DNA from: a virus
Virus record (IMG/VR): IMGVR_UViG_3300047551_002806
Location: 1-29,955 of that record
DNA: 29,955 nucleotides
Reading direction: 5' to 3' (one strand)
Numbering within the stretch: position 1 is the first letter of the stretch; every line of letters begins with the position of its first letter. The notes beneath the pieces were generated by a model. It ran no database searches. It saw only the letters and a list, made by a program, of their open reading frames with translations, and had not been told where the DNA came from. The position numbers were made by a program, and so were the translations under genes. Below, in pieces: positions 3 to 28,692 of this stretch.

Positions 3-653
3 GATAATACGGTAGATGTTAATGTTACACTTATCACTCACGGAAATAAAGTAGGAGCATCACAAATTGGTCTTAAATATGATCCTCAAATCTTCAAGTT
101 TGTAGGTGTATCTGTAGGTCCAGAAGCTAGTTATTGGAACTCATTCATCTCTTCTAAATCAGGTGAAATCTTATGGGGTGGTCACGAATCAAAAATGGCA
201 CCTTCTCTAATCACCAATCCTACACAAATGTTTAACTTCAAATTTGAAATCTTAAACAATAACTGGGAAGAAGCACCTATACAAATCATTAACAAAGCGG
301 CTGGTAGTGAAAAAGCACAAGATTTAAATATTATTCCTTCACCTACTGATGCTACAATCGTTAATGGTAGAAGAGCTAGAGATCTTGTAGATCAACTTGT
401 CAACGGATTTAGAATTTATCCAAACCCAGTTATTGATGAAATGTATGTAGATTATTTCCAAACAGCACCAGGCAATCTAACTTCAGAAATCTTCGATTTA
501 TCTGGAAAAATCCACAGTAAAGAAACACAATTCGTAGCACAAGATCAAACCGTTACCAGAAGAATCGAAACAAACACTCTCGAGCCTGGCTTATATTTTG
601 TTAGACTAACTACAGACACGAAACAAAAAATATATAAGTTTATTAAAAAATAA
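3..653 (+). CDS. Cohesin-like domain protein with T9SS type A sorting domain (5' partial)
   Basis: The frame is open from base 3, so the gene starts before the window; 216 residues are visible. Residues 1 to about 125 look like a cohesin-type beta-sandwich: alternating strands, the pattern GLKYDPQIFKFVGVSVG, then LWGGHES and FNFKFEIL. Residues 136-216 match a type A T9SS C-terminal sorting domain: FRIYPNPVID at the front, a GLYFVRL strand and a basic KFIKK end. Such tails route Sec-exported proteins through the Bacteroidetes type IX system to the cell surface. A signal peptide is expected upstream but cannot be seen. Two dockerin-like proteins encoded downstream (3179-4330, 4787-5956) make the cohesin reading more plausible. 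The sorting tail is secure; the cohesin call rests on pattern and context. Confidence 0.75.
   Translation, partial: DNTVDVNVTLITHGNKVGASQIGLKYDPQIFKFVGVSVGPEASYWNSFISSKSGEILWGGHESKMAPSLITNPTQMFNFKFEILNNNWEEAPIQIINKAAGSEKAQDLNIIPSPTDATIVNGRRARDLVDQLVNGFRIYPNPVIDEMYVDYFQTAPGNLTSEIFDLSGKIHSKETQFVAQDQTVTRRIETNTLEPGLYFVRLTTDTKQKIYKFIKK
628..638 (+). promoter_or_regulatory. Possible TATATA-type promoter inside gene end
   Basis: AAATATATAAG lies within the last codons of the preceding gene, 30 bases before the ATG at 669. It fits the spacing seen at other TATATA elements in the window and is followed by an A-rich leader. It also encodes lysine and tyrosine codons, so it may be coincidental. Confidence 0.3.
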
Positions 654-11201: not shown

Positions 11202-12908
11202 ATGTTAGAAGATTTTGATAAACTATTGAAATATGATGTTTCAGGAAAAATGTCAAAAGAATCCTATGTTAGATATCACTATCCAAAACATTATCTAGAT
11301 ATTCTGAATTTCTGCAAAGAAAATGAGTTAGATGATTTACCTTTCAAAGAAAAGGTATATTTATCATATCATCGGATTTCTATTCGCCCAAAGTGTAAAA
11401 GAGATGGTTGTCAAAATCACACCAAATACAAAAATTCAACTTTAGGTTACATTTCTTATTGTTCAACAAAATGCATTTCATCTGATCCGGACATAAAAGA
11501 TCTAAAAAAAACTAAATCACTTGAAAAGTGGGGAACTAAAACACCAAGTGAATCACCCATCATTCGTAATAAGATAATACAAACCAATCAAAGCAAATGG
11601 GGTGGGAACTCACCTATGTCTAATGATATTATAAAAAATAAATCAAAAGAAACGCTCATCAAAAACTGGAATGTTGATAATCCATCAAAGAATAAAGATA
11701 TATTAGAAAGAAGAGCCAAAAGTTTCAGGGAAAATATTGATGTTTGGAAGGAATCTTTCAAGAAAAGTTCTCTACAGAGATGGGGTACAGAACATCCGTG
11801 GTCTAACCCTGAAGTTCATAGAAAAACAATCACCGAGTTTTACAAAAACTATAAGGATAGAATTGAAGAAAAAATAAATCCATCGGACTATACATTTCTA
11901 GGGTTTGATAAGGATACAGATACAACCAATTTGAATTTTCAATGTAAGAAATGTTCAAATAATTTCAACATCTTAACCTATCAGTTTTACACAAGAATTA
12001 AAAACTCAACACCACTATGTACTATCTGTCATCCTATAGGTGAGACTATCTCATTAAAACAAGAAGAATTGTTAAAAATATTTCAGGAAAATTTTGATGG
12101 TATAGTTCTTATGAATGACAAATCAGCAATATATCCCAAAGAGCTTGATTTTTATATACCAGATCTTAAAATTGCTTTTGAATTTAACGGAGTTTTTTGG
12201 CACTCATCTAGATTTAAAGCAAAAGACTACCATCTAGAAAAAATGAATAAGTGTCAAGAGTTAGGGGTAAAACTCTACACCATCTGGGAAGATGATTACT
12301 TGACTAAGTGGGATATTGTTAAATCTTTTATATTAAATAAGTTAAAAAGACCAACAACTCGTATTTGGGCTAGAAAATGTGAAATAAAGGAAGTGCCCTA
12401 TCTAGAATCAAAAAAGTTTCTAGAGGATAATCATCTACAAGGAGATTGTAAATCTTCAATAAGGTTGGGATTATACTACGAATCAGAATTAATATCACTT
12501 ATGTGCTTTTCTAAAATAAGATTACCTATTTCTAGAAAAGGTGGCGAAGGCATATGGGAATTGACTAGGTTTTGTAATAGGAATTATACCAGTTGCCCTG
12601 GAAGTGCCTCAAAATTATTAACATATTTTAAAAATAACTATTCTTGGATACAAATACAAACCTACTCAGATAATATGATCTCACAGGGAGATCTATATAA
12701 AACTTTAGGTTTTGACTATTCAGGAACTTCAAGACCCGGATATTGGTATGTAGTAAATGGTATTAGAAAGCACCGTTTCAACTACAGAAAACACTTACTT
12801 GTTAAAAAGGGAGCAGATCCAAATAAAACAGAAGACGAAATAACACAAGAACTCGGATACATAAGAGTATGGAATTGTGGTAATAAAAAATGGATTCTAA
12901 ATAAGTAG
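11202..12908 (+). CDS. Vsr-like free-standing homing endonuclease
   Basis: 568 residues. An N-terminal cysteine cluster (CKRDGC, later YCSTKC) looks zinc-binding. Several repeats of the type KWGxxxPxxxP follow (SLEKWGTKTPSESP, SKWGGNSPMS, LQRWGTEHPWSNPE), probably DNA-binding. A second zinc ribbon (CKKC, CTIC) precedes a Vsr/EDxHD-type nuclease domain: E314, D316 (ELDFYIP), E327 in EFNG, H334 in FWH, DYHLEK and IWEDD. The C-terminal 180 residues (HLQGDCKSSIRLGLYYESEL, ELTRFCNRN, ASKL, LYKTLGF) may be a GNAT-like domain. It is flanked by its own promoter element and terminators between sheath and protease genes, as expected of a mobile endonuclease gene that cuts unoccupied alleles nearby. Paralogue: 16945-18462. 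Confidence 0.8.
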   Translation: MLEDFDKLLKYDVSGKMSKESYVRYHYPKHYLDILNFCKENELDDLPFKEKVYLSYHRISIRPKCKRDGCQNHTKYKNSTLGYISYCSTKCISSDPDIKDLKKTKSLEKWGTKTPSESPIIRNKIIQTNQSKWGGNSPMSNDIIKNKSKETLIKNWNVDNPSKNKDILERRAKSFRENIDVWKESFKKSSLQRWGTEHPWSNPEVHRKTITEFYKNYKDRIEEKINPSDYTFLGFDKDTDTTNLNFQCKKCSNNFNILTYQFYTRIKNSTPLCTICHPIGETISLKQEELLKIFQENFDGIVLMNDKSAIYPKELDFYIPDLKIAFEFNGVFWHSSRFKAKDYHLEKMNKCQELGVKLYTIWEDDYLTKWDIVKSFILNKLKRPTTRIWARKCEIKEVPYLESKKFLEDNHLQGDCKSSIRLGLYYESELISLMCFSKIRLPISRKGGEGIWELTRFCNRNYTSCPGSASKLLTYFKNNYSWIQIQTYSDNMISQGDLYKTLGFDYSGTSRPGYWYVVNGIRKHRFNYRKHLLVKKGADPNKTEDEITQELGYIRVWNCGNKKWILNK

Positions 12909-12986: not shown

Positions 12987-15113
12987 ATGAAACCTATACT
13001 AATTGTTGAAAACAACGCAAATCCGCTTAAGGTAAATGAGAGCGCATCATCATCAAAAGGAAATAATTATGTTCTAGGTGGTATTTTCACAGAGTTTGAT
13101 AAGAAAAATCGTAACGAAAGAATTTACACTGCGAATAAGTTTATTCCAGCACTAAACGAGTTGAATGAAAGAATTGAAAACATGGGTGTCGTCTATGGCG
13201 AGTTTGATCACCCAGATGTTTTTGATACATCTCTTTCAAGAGCTTCCCACCTAGTTCTAGAAGCTAGATACCACAAGAATGAAAACAGAGTGGATGGTAG
13301 AATTAAATTACTATCAACTTATTGGGGTAAAGAGGCCAAATCACTTGTTGACGATGGTTGTCCGATCTTTGTTTCCTCAAGAGCAGCTGGTATTACTGAA
13401 TCCGACGGATCAGTAACACTCAAAAAACTATTTACTTATGACATTGTAGCAGATCCAGGATTTGCTTCAGCTAAGATGACTTCAATCAATGAATCTTTAG
13501 GATTCAATAATAAAAGCAACTTTAGGATATATGAAGTATCCAACGAGTCCAAAATAAATGAACTTTTTAATATGAACAAAAACGAATTTGTTACAAAAAG
13601 ACAACTCACGGACTATTCAAATTATTTAATTAACGAGATCGCTTCAACAAAACAACAGGTAAAAACAGCTATCACCAAAGGTAGTGTTGAACCTAGAAAA
13701 GTTGAAAAACTTATTGAGTATTACGAAGAACTTAATAAGACTAACGGTCAAGTAGTTAAATATTTAGATTATCTAGCTGAGAAAATTCAGGTCGTTGTTA
13801 ATGAAAACAAAGACTTGAAAACAAGAACTGAGAAAATTATTTCTCATAATGACTATCTAGCTGAAAATCTAGAAAAAGCAATTAACTATTCTGAATATCT
13901 AGCTGAAAATCTAGATAAGAATATTTCTTACTCTGAATATCTTGCTGAGAATGTAGATAGAAATATCTCTTACTCAAAGTATTTAGCTGAAAACTTAGAT
14001 AGAAATATCTCTTATTCTGAATATCTAGCTGAAAATGTAGATAGAAATATTTCTTATTCTGAATATCTAGCTGAGAACTTAGATAGAAATATCTCTTATT
14101 CTGAATATATTGCTGAAAATCTTGATAGTAGTATTAAGTATGCTGAATACATAGCTGAAAATCTTGATACAAATATCGCTTACTCTGAATATCTAGCTGA
14201 AAATCTAGATAACTCTATTGCTTACTCTGAGTATATCGCTGAAAACCTTGATGGTAACATCGCCTACTCTGAATATATCGCCGAACACCTAGATGATAAC
14301 ATCGCTTATTCTGAGTATCTAGCTGAAAATGTTGATAAGACAATTTCTTATGCTGGACTTATTTCAGAAAAATTAAATGGTTCAAGACTCAATGAATCAA
14401 GAGGGGGTAAAGTTGTTCCAACACTCGAAGACTTCGGATTTGAAGAAGAGGTAGTTGATGAAATGCCAACGATGTATGGTAAAATGAAAAAGGATCTTCC
14501 AAAATCAACTTCTGCATACTATATGGACACAGAAGGTTGTGAAGAGTGTGGTTACGATGAAGATACTATCGAAGATCCACTCGAAGAGAACCCCGTTTAC
14601 AATGAATCTAAATTATCAAAACAAATAGATAAACTGATTTTAGAAGCTAAAAAAAGAAAAGTTTCTGAGAATAATGATTTGAATTTCTTAAAATTCCTCA
14701 ACAAAACACAAGTAGATAGTTTCCACAATCTTACAACAGAAGAGCAGGAAACAGTTAAACTTTATGTAAACGAAAGAAGTTACTTTACTGGTGGAGAAGT
14801 TTTAAGACTAATCAACGAGGCCCTATCGGCCAAAAACGAGTCTTTAGAAGAAAGACTAATCAGATTGATGCCTGATAACATAAAGCCAATCTGGAACAAG
14901 ATCGATGAATCAACTAAAAAATCGATTGTATCACAAGCTAAACTTTATCCAGAACTTGATTCTGAACTTAAAGTTGAACACTTCTGGAACACAAGACAAT
15001 TCAAAAAAGAACAAACTTCTAAGAAGTTAGTTTCTCACGAAGCTCTTATTCAAGAAGATAGACTTAGTGAAAAAGAAATCGGATCGATATTAGAAAGATT
15101 CAAAAGCATCTAA
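12987..15113 (+). CDS. Prohead protease fused to capsid scaffold (T4 gp21 + gp22-like)
   Basis: 708 residues. Residues 1 to about 168 are a T4 gp21-type prohead protease: GEFDHP with His75, FVSSRA with Ser130 or Ser131, and YDIVADPGF. From memory, the 55-residue His to Ser130 spacing equals that of T4 gp21 (His85, Ser140). Residues 287-454 hold twelve 14-residue repeats (consensus YSEYLAENLDRNIS), two heptads each, thus a regular coiled coil. The rest is charged and helical, as in scaffold cores. In T4 protease and scaffold are separate proteins. Motifs of the (I/L)NE kind recur (SINE/S, KINE/L, LINE/I, RLNE/S, LINE/A) and match SINE/N near the capsid N-terminus, so they are candidate self-cleavage sites. 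It sits immediately upstream of the capsid gene. Confidence 0.85.
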   Translation: MKPILIVENNANPLKVNESASSSKGNNYVLGGIFTEFDKKNRNERIYTANKFIPALNELNERIENMGVVYGEFDHPDVFDTSLSRASHLVLEARYHKNENRVDGRIKLLSTYWGKEAKSLVDDGCPIFVSSRAAGITESDGSVTLKKLFTYDIVADPGFASAKMTSINESLGFNNKSNFRIYEVSNESKINELFNMNKNEFVTKRQLTDYSNYLINEIASTKQQVKTAITKGSVEPRKVEKLIEYYEELNKTNGQVVKYLDYLAEKIQVVVNENKDLKTRTEKIISHNDYLAENLEKAINYSEYLAENLDKNISYSEYLAENVDRNISYSKYLAENLDRNISYSEYLAENVDRNISYSEYLAENLDRNISYSEYIAENLDSSIKYAEYIAENLDTNIAYSEYLAENLDNSIAYSEYIAENLDGNIAYSEYIAEHLDDNIAYSEYLAENVDKTISYAGLISEKLNGSRLNESRGGKVVPTLEDFGFEEEVVDEMPTMYGKMKKDLPKSTSAYYMDTEGCEECGYDEDTIEDPLEENPVYNESKLSKQIDKLILEAKKRKVSENNDLNFLKFLNKTQVDSFHNLTTEEQETVKLYVNERSYFTGGEVLRLINEALSAKNESLEERLIRLMPDNIKPIWNKIDESTKKSIVSQAKLYPELDSELKVEHFWNTRQFKKEQTSKKLVSHEALIQEDRLSEKEIGSILERFKSI
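13845..14348 (+). repeat. Twelve tandem 42-bp units encoding a 14-residue coiled-coil repeat
   Basis: The unit encodes YSEYLAENLDRNIS with variations; units 2-6 are closest to each other, units 7-11 share an Ile-Ala version (YIAENL), and a decayed thirteenth unit follows (YAGLISEKLNG). Each unit is exactly two heptads, so coiled-coil register is kept whatever the copy number. Confidence 0.9.
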
Positions 15114-16944: not shown

Positions 16945-18462
16945 ATGGATAAAATAAGATTAGATAAACTAAATGAGGCAACACAAGGTTACCCGGTTAG
17001 ATTAAGAGAAAATTTCCTCAAAAATAATTTCTCTGATCTATACAAAGAAATCGTAAGTTTTTGTAAAAATATTGAAGATTTACCCTTTATCCAAAAAATT
17101 TGGCACTGGGTATCCAACAGACCAGATTATTATACCTGTAAATGTGGTGGTAGAACCTCTTTCCACCGTAATTGGAAGGATGGTTACAGAGAGTTTTGTT
17201 CATCAAAATGTTCAGCTACAGATCAATCAACCAAGGAAAAAAGAATGAATACTACACTAGAAAAGTGGGGTGTTGATAACGTTTCTAAGTCAGATATCAT
17301 CAAAAAAAGACAAGAAGAAACCAACCTTGAAAGATGGGGTTATAAATCTAGTTTTCAAAATCCAGAAATACAAGAAAAATACAAGAAAACAGCACTTGAA
17401 AAATGGGGCGCAGATCATTATTTCAAGACCGAAGAATTTAGATTGAAAACAAAAAAATATTACCTAGAAAGATGGGGTGTCAACCATCAACTAGAAATTG
17501 ACCAGGTTAAAGAAAAAATAAAACAAACTTGCTTAATTAAATACGGTGTAGAAACCTATCTAAATACAAAACACTCACGAGATAGTATAAAATCCTATAA
17601 TAGAAGTAAATTTGAAGATGAGATTTCTTCTTTTTTAGACGAAAATGAAATTGAACATAAAATGGGTGAAAGAGATCTTATTTCACCTCTATTAATTGAT
17701 ATCTATATACCTAGCCACAATCTTGCTATTGAATACAACGGACTTTACTGGCATAGTGAATTCAAAAAAGATAAAAATTACCACCTTACAAAAACAAACT
17801 TATGTAAAGAAAGGGGTGTTCAACTTATTCATATCTGGGAAGATGACTGGAAAAATAGAAAAGAAGTTCTCAAATCCATTTTATTAAATAGATGTAAAAA
17901 ATCAAAAAATAGAATATTTGCTAGAAAGTGCCAAGTTGAGGAAATAACTACAAGAGAAATAGTCTCTAAATTTCTGAATGACAATCATATACAAGGTTAT
18001 TCCAACTATTCAACAGCAGTGGGTCTTTTTTACGAAGATAGGTTAGTAAGCTTAATGACTTTTGGTTTTCGTTGGATTAATGGAAAAAAAGAATATGAAC
18101 TTCTAAGATTTTGTAACGGTATTGATTATCAAGTTACTGGTTCGGCATCTAGATTATTTGAATATTTCATAAGGAATAACCCGGATATTGACGAGATAAA
18201 AACTTACGCAGATCTTTCACTTTTTTCTGGTGAAGTTTATTCAAGACTTGGTTTTATTTTTGATAGAAATAGTGGATTAAACTACTGGTGGGTAGTTGAT
18301 GGTTTAAGGAAACACAGATTCGGGTATAATAAAAGAAAATTAGTTAGTTTGGGTTATGATCCAACACTTACCGAAGTTCAAATTATGCATTCTCAAAACT
18401 ATTATAGAATTTGGGGATGTGGTCAAGATAGGTGGATTTGGAAAAAACTTCTAATTTCCTAG
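16945..18462 (+). CDS. Vsr-like free-standing homing endonuclease, second copy
   Basis: 505 residues, a paralogue of 11202-12908 with similar N- and C-terminal domains but without the central zinc ribbon. An N-terminal zinc site (CKCGG, FCSSKC) is followed by five KWG/RWG-type repeats (TLEKWGVDNVSKSD, NLERWGYKSSFQNPE, ALEKWGADHYF, YLERWGVNHQLE, CLIKYGVETYL). The nuclease domain has D252 (LLIDIYIP), E263 in EYNG, YWH, NYHLTK and HIWEDDW. The C-terminus (HIQGYSNYSTAVGLFYEDRL, ELLRFCNG, GSASRLFEYF, VYSRLGF) matches the copy at 12400-12900. It follows the capsid terminator, and no TATATATA box lies before it; TATAGATACAATATG at 16911-16925 is the nearest AT-rich candidate. Its 3' end overlaps the convergent gene by 12 bases. 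Confidence 0.8.
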   Translation: MDKIRLDKLNEATQGYPVRLRENFLKNNFSDLYKEIVSFCKNIEDLPFIQKIWHWVSNRPDYYTCKCGGRTSFHRNWKDGYREFCSSKCSATDQSTKEKRMNTTLEKWGVDNVSKSDIIKKRQEETNLERWGYKSSFQNPEIQEKYKKTALEKWGADHYFKTEEFRLKTKKYYLERWGVNHQLEIDQVKEKIKQTCLIKYGVETYLNTKHSRDSIKSYNRSKFEDEISSFLDENEIEHKMGERDLISPLLIDIYIPSHNLAIEYNGLYWHSEFKKDKNYHLTKTNLCKERGVQLIHIWEDDWKNRKEVLKSILLNRCKKSKNRIFARKCQVEEITTREIVSKFLNDNHIQGYSNYSTAVGLFYEDRLVSLMTFGFRWINGKKEYELLRFCNGIDYQVTGSASRLFEYFIRNNPDIDEIKTYADLSLFSGEVYSRLGFIFDRNSGLNYWWVVDGLRKHRFGYNKRKLVSLGYDPTLTEVQIMHSQNYYRIWGCGQDRWIWKKLLIS

Positions 18463-24530: not shown

Positions 24531-25700
24531 TTAGAAATCAAATTCTTTTTTTATTTCTAGAAGAAAAATATTCAATACAAAATCATACCGATCCTTTCTA
24601 CAAAAAATACTATCGTGAACGGTGAATAGTTTAATGTTTGGATCTCTTGCGTAAATCTTCTTAATAACTCGGTTGAAAATAAAATCCGATTCTAATTTTT
24701 GTAGCTGATGAGATACCCATCTATAATCACCTCGTTCTCTTTTGATAGTTTTAAGAAAATTGAATATAGTTGGAAAAAAACCACAAAATATTTTTGATAG
24801 AGAGTTTGGGTTATTTTGTCCGAATAAGATCTCAAATACAAGTTTTTTGACCTCTTTGATATTTTTATTTCCAAAAACTTTAGAAAGATGTTGATAGAAG
24901 TTTCCATCTCTTACTAAAGTTGAGAATAATTCGAGTTCTCCCTTCTCAACCTGTATATGACTATTGAGATGTATAAGTTTGAGTAAGAAAAGAGGCTGTG
25001 AGTTAGGTATATCAACTTCAGATATATCTCCATCTTCAATAGTAAGACAATTGTTTCTTAATTGCTTTGGAAGTATAGTAAATGGTGTGTGAAATCTACC
25101 ATAATCATCAAAATGAAAATATATCTGCTCTTGACGAATACAATCAACCGCGTAGTTATCTCTTTCGAGTTCCAGAGGTGAAGTGTGGTCTTTTGACAAG
25201 AGTTCAAGGCAAGCTAGTTCATCTTGTATTTTAACGCTATATAGATCAGATATTAATCTTTCTCTTATCGAAGAGCATATAGGTGAATTGTTTGACCTTA
25301 AATTGAAATCTATCCAGTTTTTTCTTTTCTTTAGCAAGATTTCATCTCCGTTTAGGTATCTAACTATATTACTACTAACTATAGAGTTTGATAGTTGATA
25401 TTGTCTTGAGCGCCTACCCTTCTGATGATTTTTATAAACTATAATAATTCCAGTTTCAATGAGATAATCCATATAGTAGTTATACCACTTTCCGTAAATA
25501 GATCTTAAAATAGAGGAGTGTAATCTAAACTCGTTTTCTTTTGTAAAAAAATACTTTGTAAGCAGTGATGATACTAAATGTATCAAAAAGTCACGTTTTA
25601 GATCTTGTTCACGGAATTTTATAATCTTACTACCTAAAAATCTATCTAAGTAAGTGGGATAATAATTAAGTATATAATCAGAACTATTTTTAACATTCAT
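24531..25700 (-). CDS. Family-A-like single-subunit polymerase (small, exonuclease-free)
   Basis: 389 residues from the ATG at 25700. A TTG at 25736 overlapping the upstream stop (TTGA) would give 401; numbering below uses the long form. Four polymerase signatures occur in the right order. YGRFHTPFTILPKQLRN (211-228) resembles the family A TGR...NLQNIPxR segment. EVDIPNSQP (D242, S246, Q247) fits motif A. VKKLVFEILFG fits motif B K-x3-F-x3-(Y/F)-G (K297, F301, F305, G306). FTVHDSI (H374, D375) fits motif C. A QLQKLESDFIF helix precedes motif C, as in PolA proteins. The first 200 residues look helical and may bind DNA. No 3'-5' exonuclease is present. DNA versus RNA polymerase cannot be decided from the motifs. 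Confidence 0.55.
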   Translation of the reverse strand: MNVKNSSDYILNYYPTYLDRFLGSKIIKFREQDLKRDFLIHLVSSLLTKYFFTKENEFRLHSSILRSIYGKWYNYYMDYLIETGIIIVYKNHQKGRRSRQYQLSNSIVSSNIVRYLNGDEILLKKRKNWIDFNLRSNNSPICSSIRERLISDLYSVKIQDELACLELLSKDHTSPLELERDNYAVDCIRQEQIYFHFDDYGRFHTPFTILPKQLRNNCLTIEDGDISEVDIPNSQPLFLLKLIHLNSHIQVEKGELELFSTLVRDGNFYQHLSKVFGNKNIKEVKKLVFEILFGQNNPNSLSKIFCGFFPTIFNFLKTIKRERGDYRWVSHQLQKLESDFIFNRVIKKIYARDPNIKLFTVHDSIFCRKDRYDFVLNIFLLEIKKEFDF

Positions 25701-25732
25701 ACCCAATAAGTATGATATTATAGGGTAAAAGT

Positions 25733-27049
25733 TCAAGGTTTTTTTTCTGAAAAATCAAATCCTTTTACAGATTTATCTTTTTTAGATTTCTCATCAGCGC
25801 CCTTTTCAAACTCTTTGTAAACATCTGGGTAAACTTGACCTTGAGAATCGGTATCGTATTTTATATCAAAATAATCACTGAAATCCAAAAGACCTTTCTT
25901 TGTGAGTTCTAGTTCTGATTTTTTATTAAGGTATTCATCTACACGAGCCTCTATGGTATCTACAAAACTATTAAAAAGATTTAAGGTATTGTTATTGAAA
26001 ACACCAATCGGTTTTTTCTTTTTTCTATTGAAAGAGCCAAGTACAACCTTAAAGATATATTCTATTTTTGGATCTTGTGAGATAATATTTTTAGTAGCGA
26101 GATCAGATATAAGCTCACGGTTTATTTTAAATTTATCTTTATTAAAAAAGTGTGGTATAGTAAACTCAAAATCCATAACATCTCTTTTTACTTCGGTCAT
26201 ATAAACATTGAAAAGCTTACAGATTAAGCTAATATAGGCCTCTTCACGATTTTGAGCGTCAATCTTAATACGCTTGAGATCTACAGATTGACAAAAACTA
26301 AGAAAATTGATTAGGATAAGAGTATAGATTTCAACGAACTCGGTAGATCCGTTATCAGATATTTTTTTGTAAAGAGGATTCAAGATAGCAAACGTTGTTT
26401 GTGAGTCAGGTGTTCTAATAATCAATTTTTCTAGATTATTTTGAAACTCATCTTCCATTAAAAAAGAGTTCTGTGTGTTTGGATTAAGTATTTTGTAAAA
26501 GAAAAAAGCAAAAGATTTTTCACCAAATACATATTCTAGATCATTTTCAGAGGTATTCAGAAAATATTTTATAGCTTCTTTTGTTTTTTGAGAAAGCCTA
26601 CCCTTGAAAATAATAGGTAGGGAATCAACATCAAATAATCTTGAATATTCATCAAGCTCTTCGATAGTATAGTTATAGTCACGACCTTTAATAATAGAGG
26701 TAAGAACTAATCCATTCTTGGGAGTTCTAGTGTAGGAGATATTAGCAGGTTGGTTATCAGAGAAATACTCAAAAACATACCACCATTTTTTATTGAGTAA
26801 TGATTTTACTCTTTTATCAAGTGAGTTGAAGTAGTCAAAAGCTGCGTTATAATAATTTTGCATAGCTAAATCTACTAGATTTATTGGTTCTGATGATAAA
26901 GATTTTGGCTTTATTGTGAATTTTTCACCATCCCATCCAACTAATATTTTTGATCCTTGAACATCTTCAAATATCATAAGATCAGAATCCAAGATCTTAT
27001 CGATTTGGTCTGTATCACTAATTGTGTTCAAGTTTACTAATTTTGACAT
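25733..27049 (-). CDS. Uncharacterised protein with ligase-like motifs
   Basis: 438 residues. Some segments resemble nucleotidyltransferase-fold ligases: VGWDGEKFTIKPKS where motif I (KxDG) would be, WWYVFEYFSDN like motif III, LEKLIIRTPDS like motif IV, and AILNPLYKK like motif V. The position of the nucleophilic Lys in motif I is Gly, so classical adenylation is doubtful. The C-terminal 200 residues are helical and end in a lysine-rich, probably disordered tail. The gene starts after a rare good Shine-Dalgarno sequence (AAAGGAG, 4 bases before ATG), and its stop overlaps a TTG of the polymerase-like gene, suggesting coupled expression. The ligase reading is tentative. Confidence 0.5.
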   Translation of the reverse strand: MSKLVNLNTISDTDQIDKILDSDLMIFEDVQGSKILVGWDGEKFTIKPKSLSSEPINLVDLAMQNYYNAAFDYFNSLDKRVKSLLNKKWWYVFEYFSDNQPANISYTRTPKNGLVLTSIIKGRDYNYTIEELDEYSRLFDVDSLPIIFKGRLSQKTKEAIKYFLNTSENDLEYVFGEKSFAFFFYKILNPNTQNSFLMEDEFQNNLEKLIIRTPDSQTTFAILNPLYKKISDNGSTEFVEIYTLILINFLSFCQSVDLKRIKIDAQNREEAYISLICKLFNVYMTEVKRDVMDFEFTIPHFFNKDKFKINRELISDLATKNIISQDPKIEYIFKVVLGSFNRKKKKPIGVFNNNTLNLFNSFVDTIEARVDEYLNKKSELELTKKGLLDFSDYFDIKYDTDSQGQVYPDVYKEFEKGADEKSKKDKSVKGFDFSEKKP

Positions 27050-27537: not shown

Positions 27538-28692
27538 ATGTTAAAATCCCTTAAATATAGAATATATCCAACTGACGATCAAATAGTTAAACTATCAAAT
27601 ATCTTTGGTCAGGTTAGGTTTGTCTATAATTTAGGATTAGAAACAAAGATAAATGCTTGGAAATCACACAGAAAATCTATATCAGCTTTCGATCTAAATA
27701 ACCAAATTAAAGACCTCAAAGACCATATCGACTGGATTGACGCACCGAGTCAATCACTACAAATGGCAATGAAAAATCTAGATAGTGCTTATAGTGGATT
27801 CTTCAAAGGTGGTGGTTTTCCAAAGTTTAAGAATAAATATAGTAAACAGAGTTTCCAATTACCTCAAGGTGTTCACTTTAAGGATGGTAAAGTATTCATA
27901 CCTAAACTTAAATTAGTAGATATAGATATACATAGAGAATTTAAAGGAACTATAAAGAGTTCAACTATTTCTAAATCAACAACTAATAAATATTACATTT
28001 CAATTCTAGTAGATACACATGAGCCCAAACCAGAAAAGAAACCAATTAAATTATACACTAGTGTTGGAGTGGATCTAGGAATTAAAGATTTTGCTATAAC
28101 ATCGGATGGTAAGAAGTTCAAGAACCAAGACTTCTTAAAATCCGAATTAAATAGGTTAAGGATTGAGCAGCGATCCTTAGCTAGAAAACAAAAAGGATCA
28201 AATCACTACAACAACCAAAAACTTAAAGTATCATTAATTCATGAGCATATCCGAAACAAGAGGGAGGATTATCTACATAAAGTATCTAAATATCTAGTGG
28301 ATAATTATGATACAATATGTATTGAAGATCTTGGAACTTCTAATATGATGAAGAATGGTAAATTATCAAGAGCTATTCAAGACATGGGTTGGTCCAAACT
28401 CAAGTCTATGTTGGAGTACAAATCTGATTGGTATGGTAAAAACCTTCAAGTAATTGGAAGATTTGAACCATCTAGTAAAACTTGTAATTCTTGTGGTGCG
28501 AAGAATAGGGACCTGAAATTATCAGATCGTGAATGGGTATGTAAGGATTGCGGTGAAATACATGATCGCGACATAAATGCTGCCACAAATATAAAAAATT
28601 TCGGGTTGAGGAACCAACCCAGCGTCACTCAACGTAAATCATTGGATTATGCGTGTGCCGTAGAAACACAAAAGTCTTTAGCTTTTGTGTAG
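27538..28692 (+). CDS. tnpB: TnpB RNA-guided nuclease (IS200/IS605 family)
   Basis: 384 residues, full length for TnpB. The N-terminal domain begins LKSLKYRIYPTDDQ and includes QVRFVYNLGLE. The RuvC-like nuclease residues are all present: D179 in VGVDLGIKDFA, E263 in CIEDLGTSNM, and D345 in HDRDINAATNI. A four-cysteine zinc finger (C316, C319, C335, C338) sits between the last two. TnpB proteins cut DNA next to a short target-adjacent motif, guided by an omega RNA from the element's right end, which helps keep the element in the genome. The final codons (QKSLAFV and stop) are encoded by the right-end hairpin. The gene appears intact. No tnpA accompanies it. Confidence 0.92.
   Translation: MLKSLKYRIYPTDDQIVKLSNIFGQVRFVYNLGLETKINAWKSHRKSISAFDLNNQIKDLKDHIDWIDAPSQSLQMAMKNLDSAYSGFFKGGGFPKFKNKYSKQSFQLPQGVHFKDGKVFIPKLKLVDIDIHREFKGTIKSSTISKSTTNKYYISILVDTHEPKPEKKPIKLYTSVGVDLGIKDFAITSDGKKFKNQDFLKSELNRLRIEQRSLARKQKGSNHYNNQKLKVSLIHEHIRNKREDYLHKVSKYLVDNYDTICIEDLGTSNMMKNGKLSRAIQDMGWSKLKSMLEYKSDWYGKNLQVIGRFEPSSKTCNSCGAKNRDLKLSDREWVCKDCGEIHDRDINAATNIKNFGLRNQPSVTQRKSLDYACAVETQKSLAFV

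Follow-up and report, generated by a model that had tools for sequence, protein, structure and literature searches.

The window analysed here, a 29,955-nucleotide stretch of viral DNA (IMG/VR record IMGVR_UViG_3300047551_002806, positions 1 to 29,955), encodes on its minus strand a member of an uncatalogued polymerase family, which is carried by many of the largest known phages besides their main DNA polymerase. The protein is a conserved accessory polymerase on a sister branch of the divPolA2 group, rather than a lone curiosity. We consider it somewhat more probable than all other readings together that this is an active, exonuclease-free and thumb-less polymerase of the PolA fold, with a winged-helix-like head and a loosened sugar selection, serving as an accessory enzyme for repair or gap filling.

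Gene, start codon and selection

The open reading frame given in the preliminary description (24531-25736, minus strand) is present and would encode 401 aa if its TTG start were used, but in L001, a related contig of 96% identity, an in-frame TAG stands three codons past this TTG. The start at 25736 was therefore rejected and the conserved start assigned to the ATG at 25706, which reduces the true length to 391 aa. Residues are numbered in this shorter form, so that the D242 and D375 named earlier become D232 and D365. Strong purifying selection acts on the gene, the comparison with L001 giving dN 0.015 and dS 0.198 (dN/dS about 0.08) and that with a second contig (L002) dN 0.17 and dS 1.40 (dN/dS 0.12). 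The coordinates of the gene, its parts and its partner genes are collected in Table 1.

Table 1. Polymerase gene, parts of its product and partner genes in the window (residues of the 391-aa form; counts refer to 48 family rows)
Feature	Position	Strand	Basis
Accessory family-A-type palm polymerase gene, 391 aa	24531..25706	(-)	ATG at 25706; family alignments, AlphaFold model
N-terminal domain, residues 1-120, replacing thumb/exonuclease	25347..25706	(-)	AlphaFold, Foldseek
Helical linker, residues 121-195	25122..25346	(-)	DSSP of model
DxxGRxHTxxT...R motif, residues 198-217	25056..25115	(-)	R204, T210 48/48; D200 45/48
Motif A, residues 230-240, putative catalytic D232, Q237	24987..25019	(-)	D, N, S, Q 48/48
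Motif B / O-helix, residues 283-296: K287, Y/F291, F295-G296	24819..24860	(-)	hhalign to Pol I
LQxxES motif, residues 333-340	24687..24710	(-)	aligned to Pol I MQGTAAD region
Motif C, residues 360-370, TVHDS, putative catalytic D365	24597..24629	(-)	H, D, S 48/48; aligned to Pol I VHDE
c2, upstream partner gene, 438 aa	25733..27049	(-)	conserved; no family match
c1, downstream partner gene, 179 aa	23967..24506	(-)	conserved; no family match

Distribution of the family

No credible match to the protein was found in Pfam or NCBIfam, and only chance matches were returned by PHROGs and by the PDB when searched by sequence (phmmer and profile searches). The family A DNA polymerase profile PF00476 matched none of 53 family members, nor the family gene in the genome searches, and one member weakly matched the canonical PolA family phrog_15971 of PHROGs. 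A defence function was rejected, as the PADLOC profiles for defence polymerases and RTs gave no match to the family.

Homologues, a search for which was suggested in the preliminary description, form a family with copies in both viruses and Bacteroidota. A motif-based scan of IMG/VR gave at least 140 relatives in viral contigs, many of them with lengths in the hundreds of kilobases; 80 relatives were kept. With tblastn, six phage records, 595-735 kb in size, yielded full-length relatives with 28-44% identity (two of the six showed identical match values), and a partial relative came from a 35-kb Hymenobacter plasmid. The genome scan yielded six bacterial loci, in Bacteroidota only (Flavobacterium, Hymenobacter, Taibaiella and a Saprospiraceae MAG), and a profile search of Bacteroidota genomes detected the family in 16 of 395.

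Conserved motifs and the sugar gate

Conservation was counted over 48 non-redundant family rows, taken from phages and Bacteroidota elements. D232, N235-S236-Q237, K287, Q336, E339 and H364-D365-S366 are identical in every row, and F295 is kept in 47 of them. Motifs A, B and C had already been recognised in the order typical of PolA, an observation strengthened by the invariance of D232, K287 and D365; judged from the alignment, the motifs are not due to chance. The DxxGRxHTxxT...R motif is the counterpart of the TGRLSS region of PolA and of the DxxGR motif of T7 RNAP, Q237 sits at the steric-gate position, that of Glu710 in E. coli Pol I, and motif B was paired by hhalign with K758/F762/Y766 of the same enzyme.

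The steric gate of family A polymerases is formed by E710 and Y766, and the substitution Y639F in T7 RNAP, at the counterpart of Y766, relaxes the choice of sugar. E710, K758 and Y766 are invariant in the canonical PolA alignment, whereas in the present family the gate Glu (motif A Asp +5) is replaced by Gln in 48/48 rows and the O-helix, which keeps its Lys in all 48, has Phe in place of Tyr in 47. Motif C reads HDS in all rows and HDE in none, with the Asp retained. Since both the gate Glu and the O-helix Tyr are exchanged, the polymerase probably tells dNTPs and rNTPs apart only poorly.

The deviations at the gate and in motif C might also be read as signs of a catalytically dead palm protein with a structural or regulatory role, and the position of the gene between portal/capsid genes and conserved unknown genes would suit such a protein. 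We regard this as highly improbable, because neither the two metal-binding Asp residues nor the O-helix Lys nor the LQ..E motif varies between distant hosts.

Predicted structure and relation to DNA and RNA polymerases

The AlphaFold model obtained with the 48-row alignment (pLDDT 92.3, pTM 0.87) predicts a family-A palm/fingers fold of the PolA type. In the Foldseek comparison with the PDB, family-A DNA polymerases were on top (E 7.9e-5 to 1e-3, probability 1.00), the best matches being the apicoplast Pol (E 7.9e-5) and Aquifex Pol I (E 8e-4), while human mitochondrial RNA polymerase appeared lower (E 0.025) and T7 RNAP was weak (E 0.37). The global TM-scores to PDB polymerases are about 0.4, in our reading because the match is confined to palm and fingers. 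Against predicted viral proteins, the top match came from an uncultured marine phage (TM 0.89, 37% identity; annotated as 'Putative DNA polymerase I'), and a protein of Barba31A that bears the name DNA polymerase was matched as well (E 9e-6). The proposal of a small family-A-type palm polymerase is thus upheld by the fold search suggested along with it, which found a right-hand palm and fingers with PolA ranked above T7 RNAP; the exonuclease domain, said to be missing, is indeed absent from both the ORF and the model, and the model has no canonical thumb.

Profile comparison gave a similar order. Alignment of the family by hhalign with divPolA2, represented by eleven proteins (the published AUR84708 and relatives including ICP1), reached a probability of 97.6% and an E of 3.3e-12 with the motifs in register. 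With canonical PolA the E value was 0.16, motifs B and C being in the correct register (K287, F295 and HDS fall on K758, Y766 and VHDE), and with the T7-type RNAP it was 0.38, not significant and out of register. For most family members the sequence similarity to canonical PolA lies below significance.

The N-terminal domain (117 residues), modelled alone, gave a pLDDT of 90. Its Foldseek matches were mostly winged-helix regulators (MarR, Fur) and ORC-complex entries, with a best E of 0.16 and none significant, and weakly suggest a winged-helix-like domain; the RNAP promoter domain was not matched in this search.

These data bear on the three activities considered at the outset, a DNA polymerase, a primase-polymerase or a single-subunit RNA polymerase. 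Fold and profile favour the first, and RNA synthesis is kept open by the lost gate Glu and by the HDS of motif C, whose T7-RNA-polymerase-like character had been pointed out before and which extends to all 48 rows. A small single-subunit RNAP, or a primase-like enzyme which starts or extends RNA on DNA, would also agree with the DxxGR motif and with the mitochondrial RNAP among the Foldseek matches, and an RNAP option was raised for divPolA2 by Yutin et al. (PMC11348598). We consider such an enzyme conceivable but unlikely: PolA surpasses RNAP by fold as well as by profile, the motif A of T7 RNAP (SCSGIQH) and its M635 are absent, the N-terminal domain does not resemble the RNAP promoter domain, and a gp61-like primase is already available in five huge-phage records.

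Position in the polymerase tree

The polymerase-core tree was built by a quick method and has long branches and no bootstrap. In it divPolA2 is separated from the present family, the 'NSQ' clade, with an SH-aLRT of 100, and one Bacteroidota row (L120) groups with divPolA2. From this placement the family appears as a separate new clade, sister to divPolA2. Of the phage rows, 46 out of 47 form one group (SH-aLRT 99) situated among the Bacteroidota element copies, and the copy of LR756511 (L010) stands apart from the others. The phage clade was probably seeded from Bacteroidota mobile elements.

Setting in huge phages

The same-strand order c2 - polymerase - c1 occurs in about 40 of 48 huge-phage loci; c1 is present in 42 loci and lies directly downstream of the polymerase in 40. 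Profile searches gave no family for c1 or c2. In its sequence features c2 may resemble an RNA-ligase-like nucleotidyltransferase whose KxDG motif is degenerate. The window holds T4-type portal, capsid and sheath genes, and the location of the polymerase among virion genes, not repair genes, counts against its reading as a repair polymerase.

Several further features were seen in the window. Two paralogous proteins with DUF7487 repeats, 34% identical to each other (11202-12908 and 16945-18462, both on the plus strand), lie on either side of the capsid/scaffold genes and resemble free-standing homing endonucleases, the second having a sub-threshold REase-like match. A 42-bp tandem repeat of about 11.6 copies (13850-14337), composed of YSEYLAENLDRNI repeats, lies within a putative prohead protease/scaffold ORF (12987-15113). 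A TnpB/OrfB-type gene (IS605 family, Cas12f1-like TNB domain) is found at 27538-28692 on the plus strand, near the end of a small ORF, and the phage protein encoded at 195-653 (plus strand) carries a Por secretion-system C-terminal sorting domain, a hallmark of Bacteroidota.

In four of five huge-phage records (LR745206, LR756502, LR756501 and LR756504) PolB is split over two distant ORFs of about 410-570 aa, an arrangement seen in large IMG/VR contigs too; over the records and contigs together the two genes encode about 500 and 370-570 aa, and in several genomes the N-part is located roughly 8-20 kb from the polymerase gene. Neither a PF00476 PolA nor a PolIII alpha was detected in these four records. 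The fifth, LR756511, has PolIII alpha instead, and encodes a 428-aa PolA-type polymerase (L010:9149-10435) the start of which overlaps the family gene's end by 4 bp, so that two family-A-type polymerases are adjacent. Among further large contigs PolB was found in 9/10 and PF00476 in 0/10.

A T4 gp61-like primase was present in all five huge-phage records tested; the T4 gp61 profile proved better suited than PF01807, with which the primase search was nearly empty. The idea that the polymerase is a stand-in for a missing primase was dropped for this reason, and the primase-polymerase option of the preliminary description becomes less likely in huge phages. Since PolB or PolIII alpha and a gp61-like primase are both present, the polymerase is neither the main replicase nor the sole primase. 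The PF00940 search of huge phages for T7 RNAP was empty, but its control also matched nowhere, so that this negative carries no weight.

Bacteroidota mobile elements

In several loci the bacterial copies are found near integrases (tyrosine or serine), an AAA_24 ATPase and DUF3871, and several element loci have no integrase within the stretch read. The locus L092 of Flavobacterium salilacus is an integrated element with integrase, AAA_24, DUF3871, polymerase, type I RM specificity and Septu-like PtuA/HNH genes. Such neighbours, together with the copy on the Hymenobacter plasmid and the place of the phage clade among the element copies, could indicate a past and continuing function in the replication of mobile elements: the winged-helix domain would bind an origin, the core would prime or extend there, and the huge phages would have co-opted the protein. 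This explanation seems improbable to us, as the winged-helix assignment is weak, several loci lack an integrase in the stretch read and the phages possess their own replisome.

Proposed function

The family, its conservation, the predicted fold, the putative catalytic residues and the joint occurrence with a replicase and a primase come from the computations. For the preferred accessory polymerase, we infer catalytic activity, template, sugar preference and repair role along the following lines. D232 and D365 would carry out two-metal catalysis, the fingers helix would supply K287 and the N-terminal winged-helix-like domain would bind DNA. The carriers, huge T4-related phages thought to infect Bacteroidota, have their own (split) PolB and primase, and the enzyme most probably serves short synthesis tasks, such as gap filling, repair or lesion bypass, and end extension during recombination. 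Repair or gap filling is the most likely accessory role, and is preferred over RNA or primer synthesis. It is tempting to speculate, although we give it rather little credence, that a loosened or switched sugar selection and a DNA-binding head allow this clade to start and extend RNA or mixed strands, and that a former replication or priming enzyme of Bacteroidota mobile elements was taken over by the largest phages.

With this family, the thumb-less PolA-like phage polymerases gain an uncatalogued clade, which occurs widely in some of the largest known phages and also in mobile elements of the bacteria that they presumably infect. Its altered gate residues make the question of DNA or RNA polymerase testable on one small, probably expressible protein.

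Comparison with known polymerases

The closest known group, divPolA2, was described in barbaviruses and related phages as a palm core without thumb or exonuclease, encoded beside a regular PolB, for which a function either as repair DNAP or as RNAP was suggested (Yutin et al. 2024, PMC11348598). Both groups have about 400-450 aa, a palm/fingers core with no exonuclease or canonical thumb, an N-terminal globular domain and another replicative polymerase encoded alongside. They differ at the gate position, which is Glu, His or Trp in divPolA2 and Gln in the NSQ family, and in motif C, always HDS in the latter. The conserved c2-pol-c1 neighbourhood is likewise peculiar to the NSQ family. Moreover, divPolA2 is hosted by gammaproteobacterial phages of 80-150 kb, the named carriers being ICP1, barbaviruses and Aeromonas/Vibrio phages, whereas the NSQ family resides in huge phages and Bacteroidota elements. 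In divPolA1 a dead exonuclease is fused to the palm, while the polymerase described here has a 120-aa N-terminal domain instead, the comparison being one of domain layout alone.

With the family A enzymes (E. coli Pol I, T7 gp5, apicoplast Pol) the protein shares the fold, the motif order, the catalytic Asp pair and the O-helix Lys; it differs from them in the changes of E710 to Q, Y766 to F and HDE to HDS, in the lack of an exonuclease and a canonical thumb, and in having no PF00476 match. The features common to T7-type RNAP and POLRMT are the HDS of motif C, the DxxGR motif and a weak structural match, but the DGSCSGIQH motif A, the M635/Y639 fingers signature and the promoter-binding domain of the T7-type enzymes (PF00940) are absent.

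Mahaphages, the clade to which the largest phages belong, are predicted to infect Bacteroidetes (PMC12607003). Moraphages, which are T4-related aquatic phages with predicted Bacteroidota hosts, also have a second polymerase named after PolA, the orthologous group VOG01986 'DNA polymerase I', listed next to PolB (Perez-Hernandez et al. 2025, PMC12619734). Compared by description only, VOG01986 may be the same family as the polymerase of the window.
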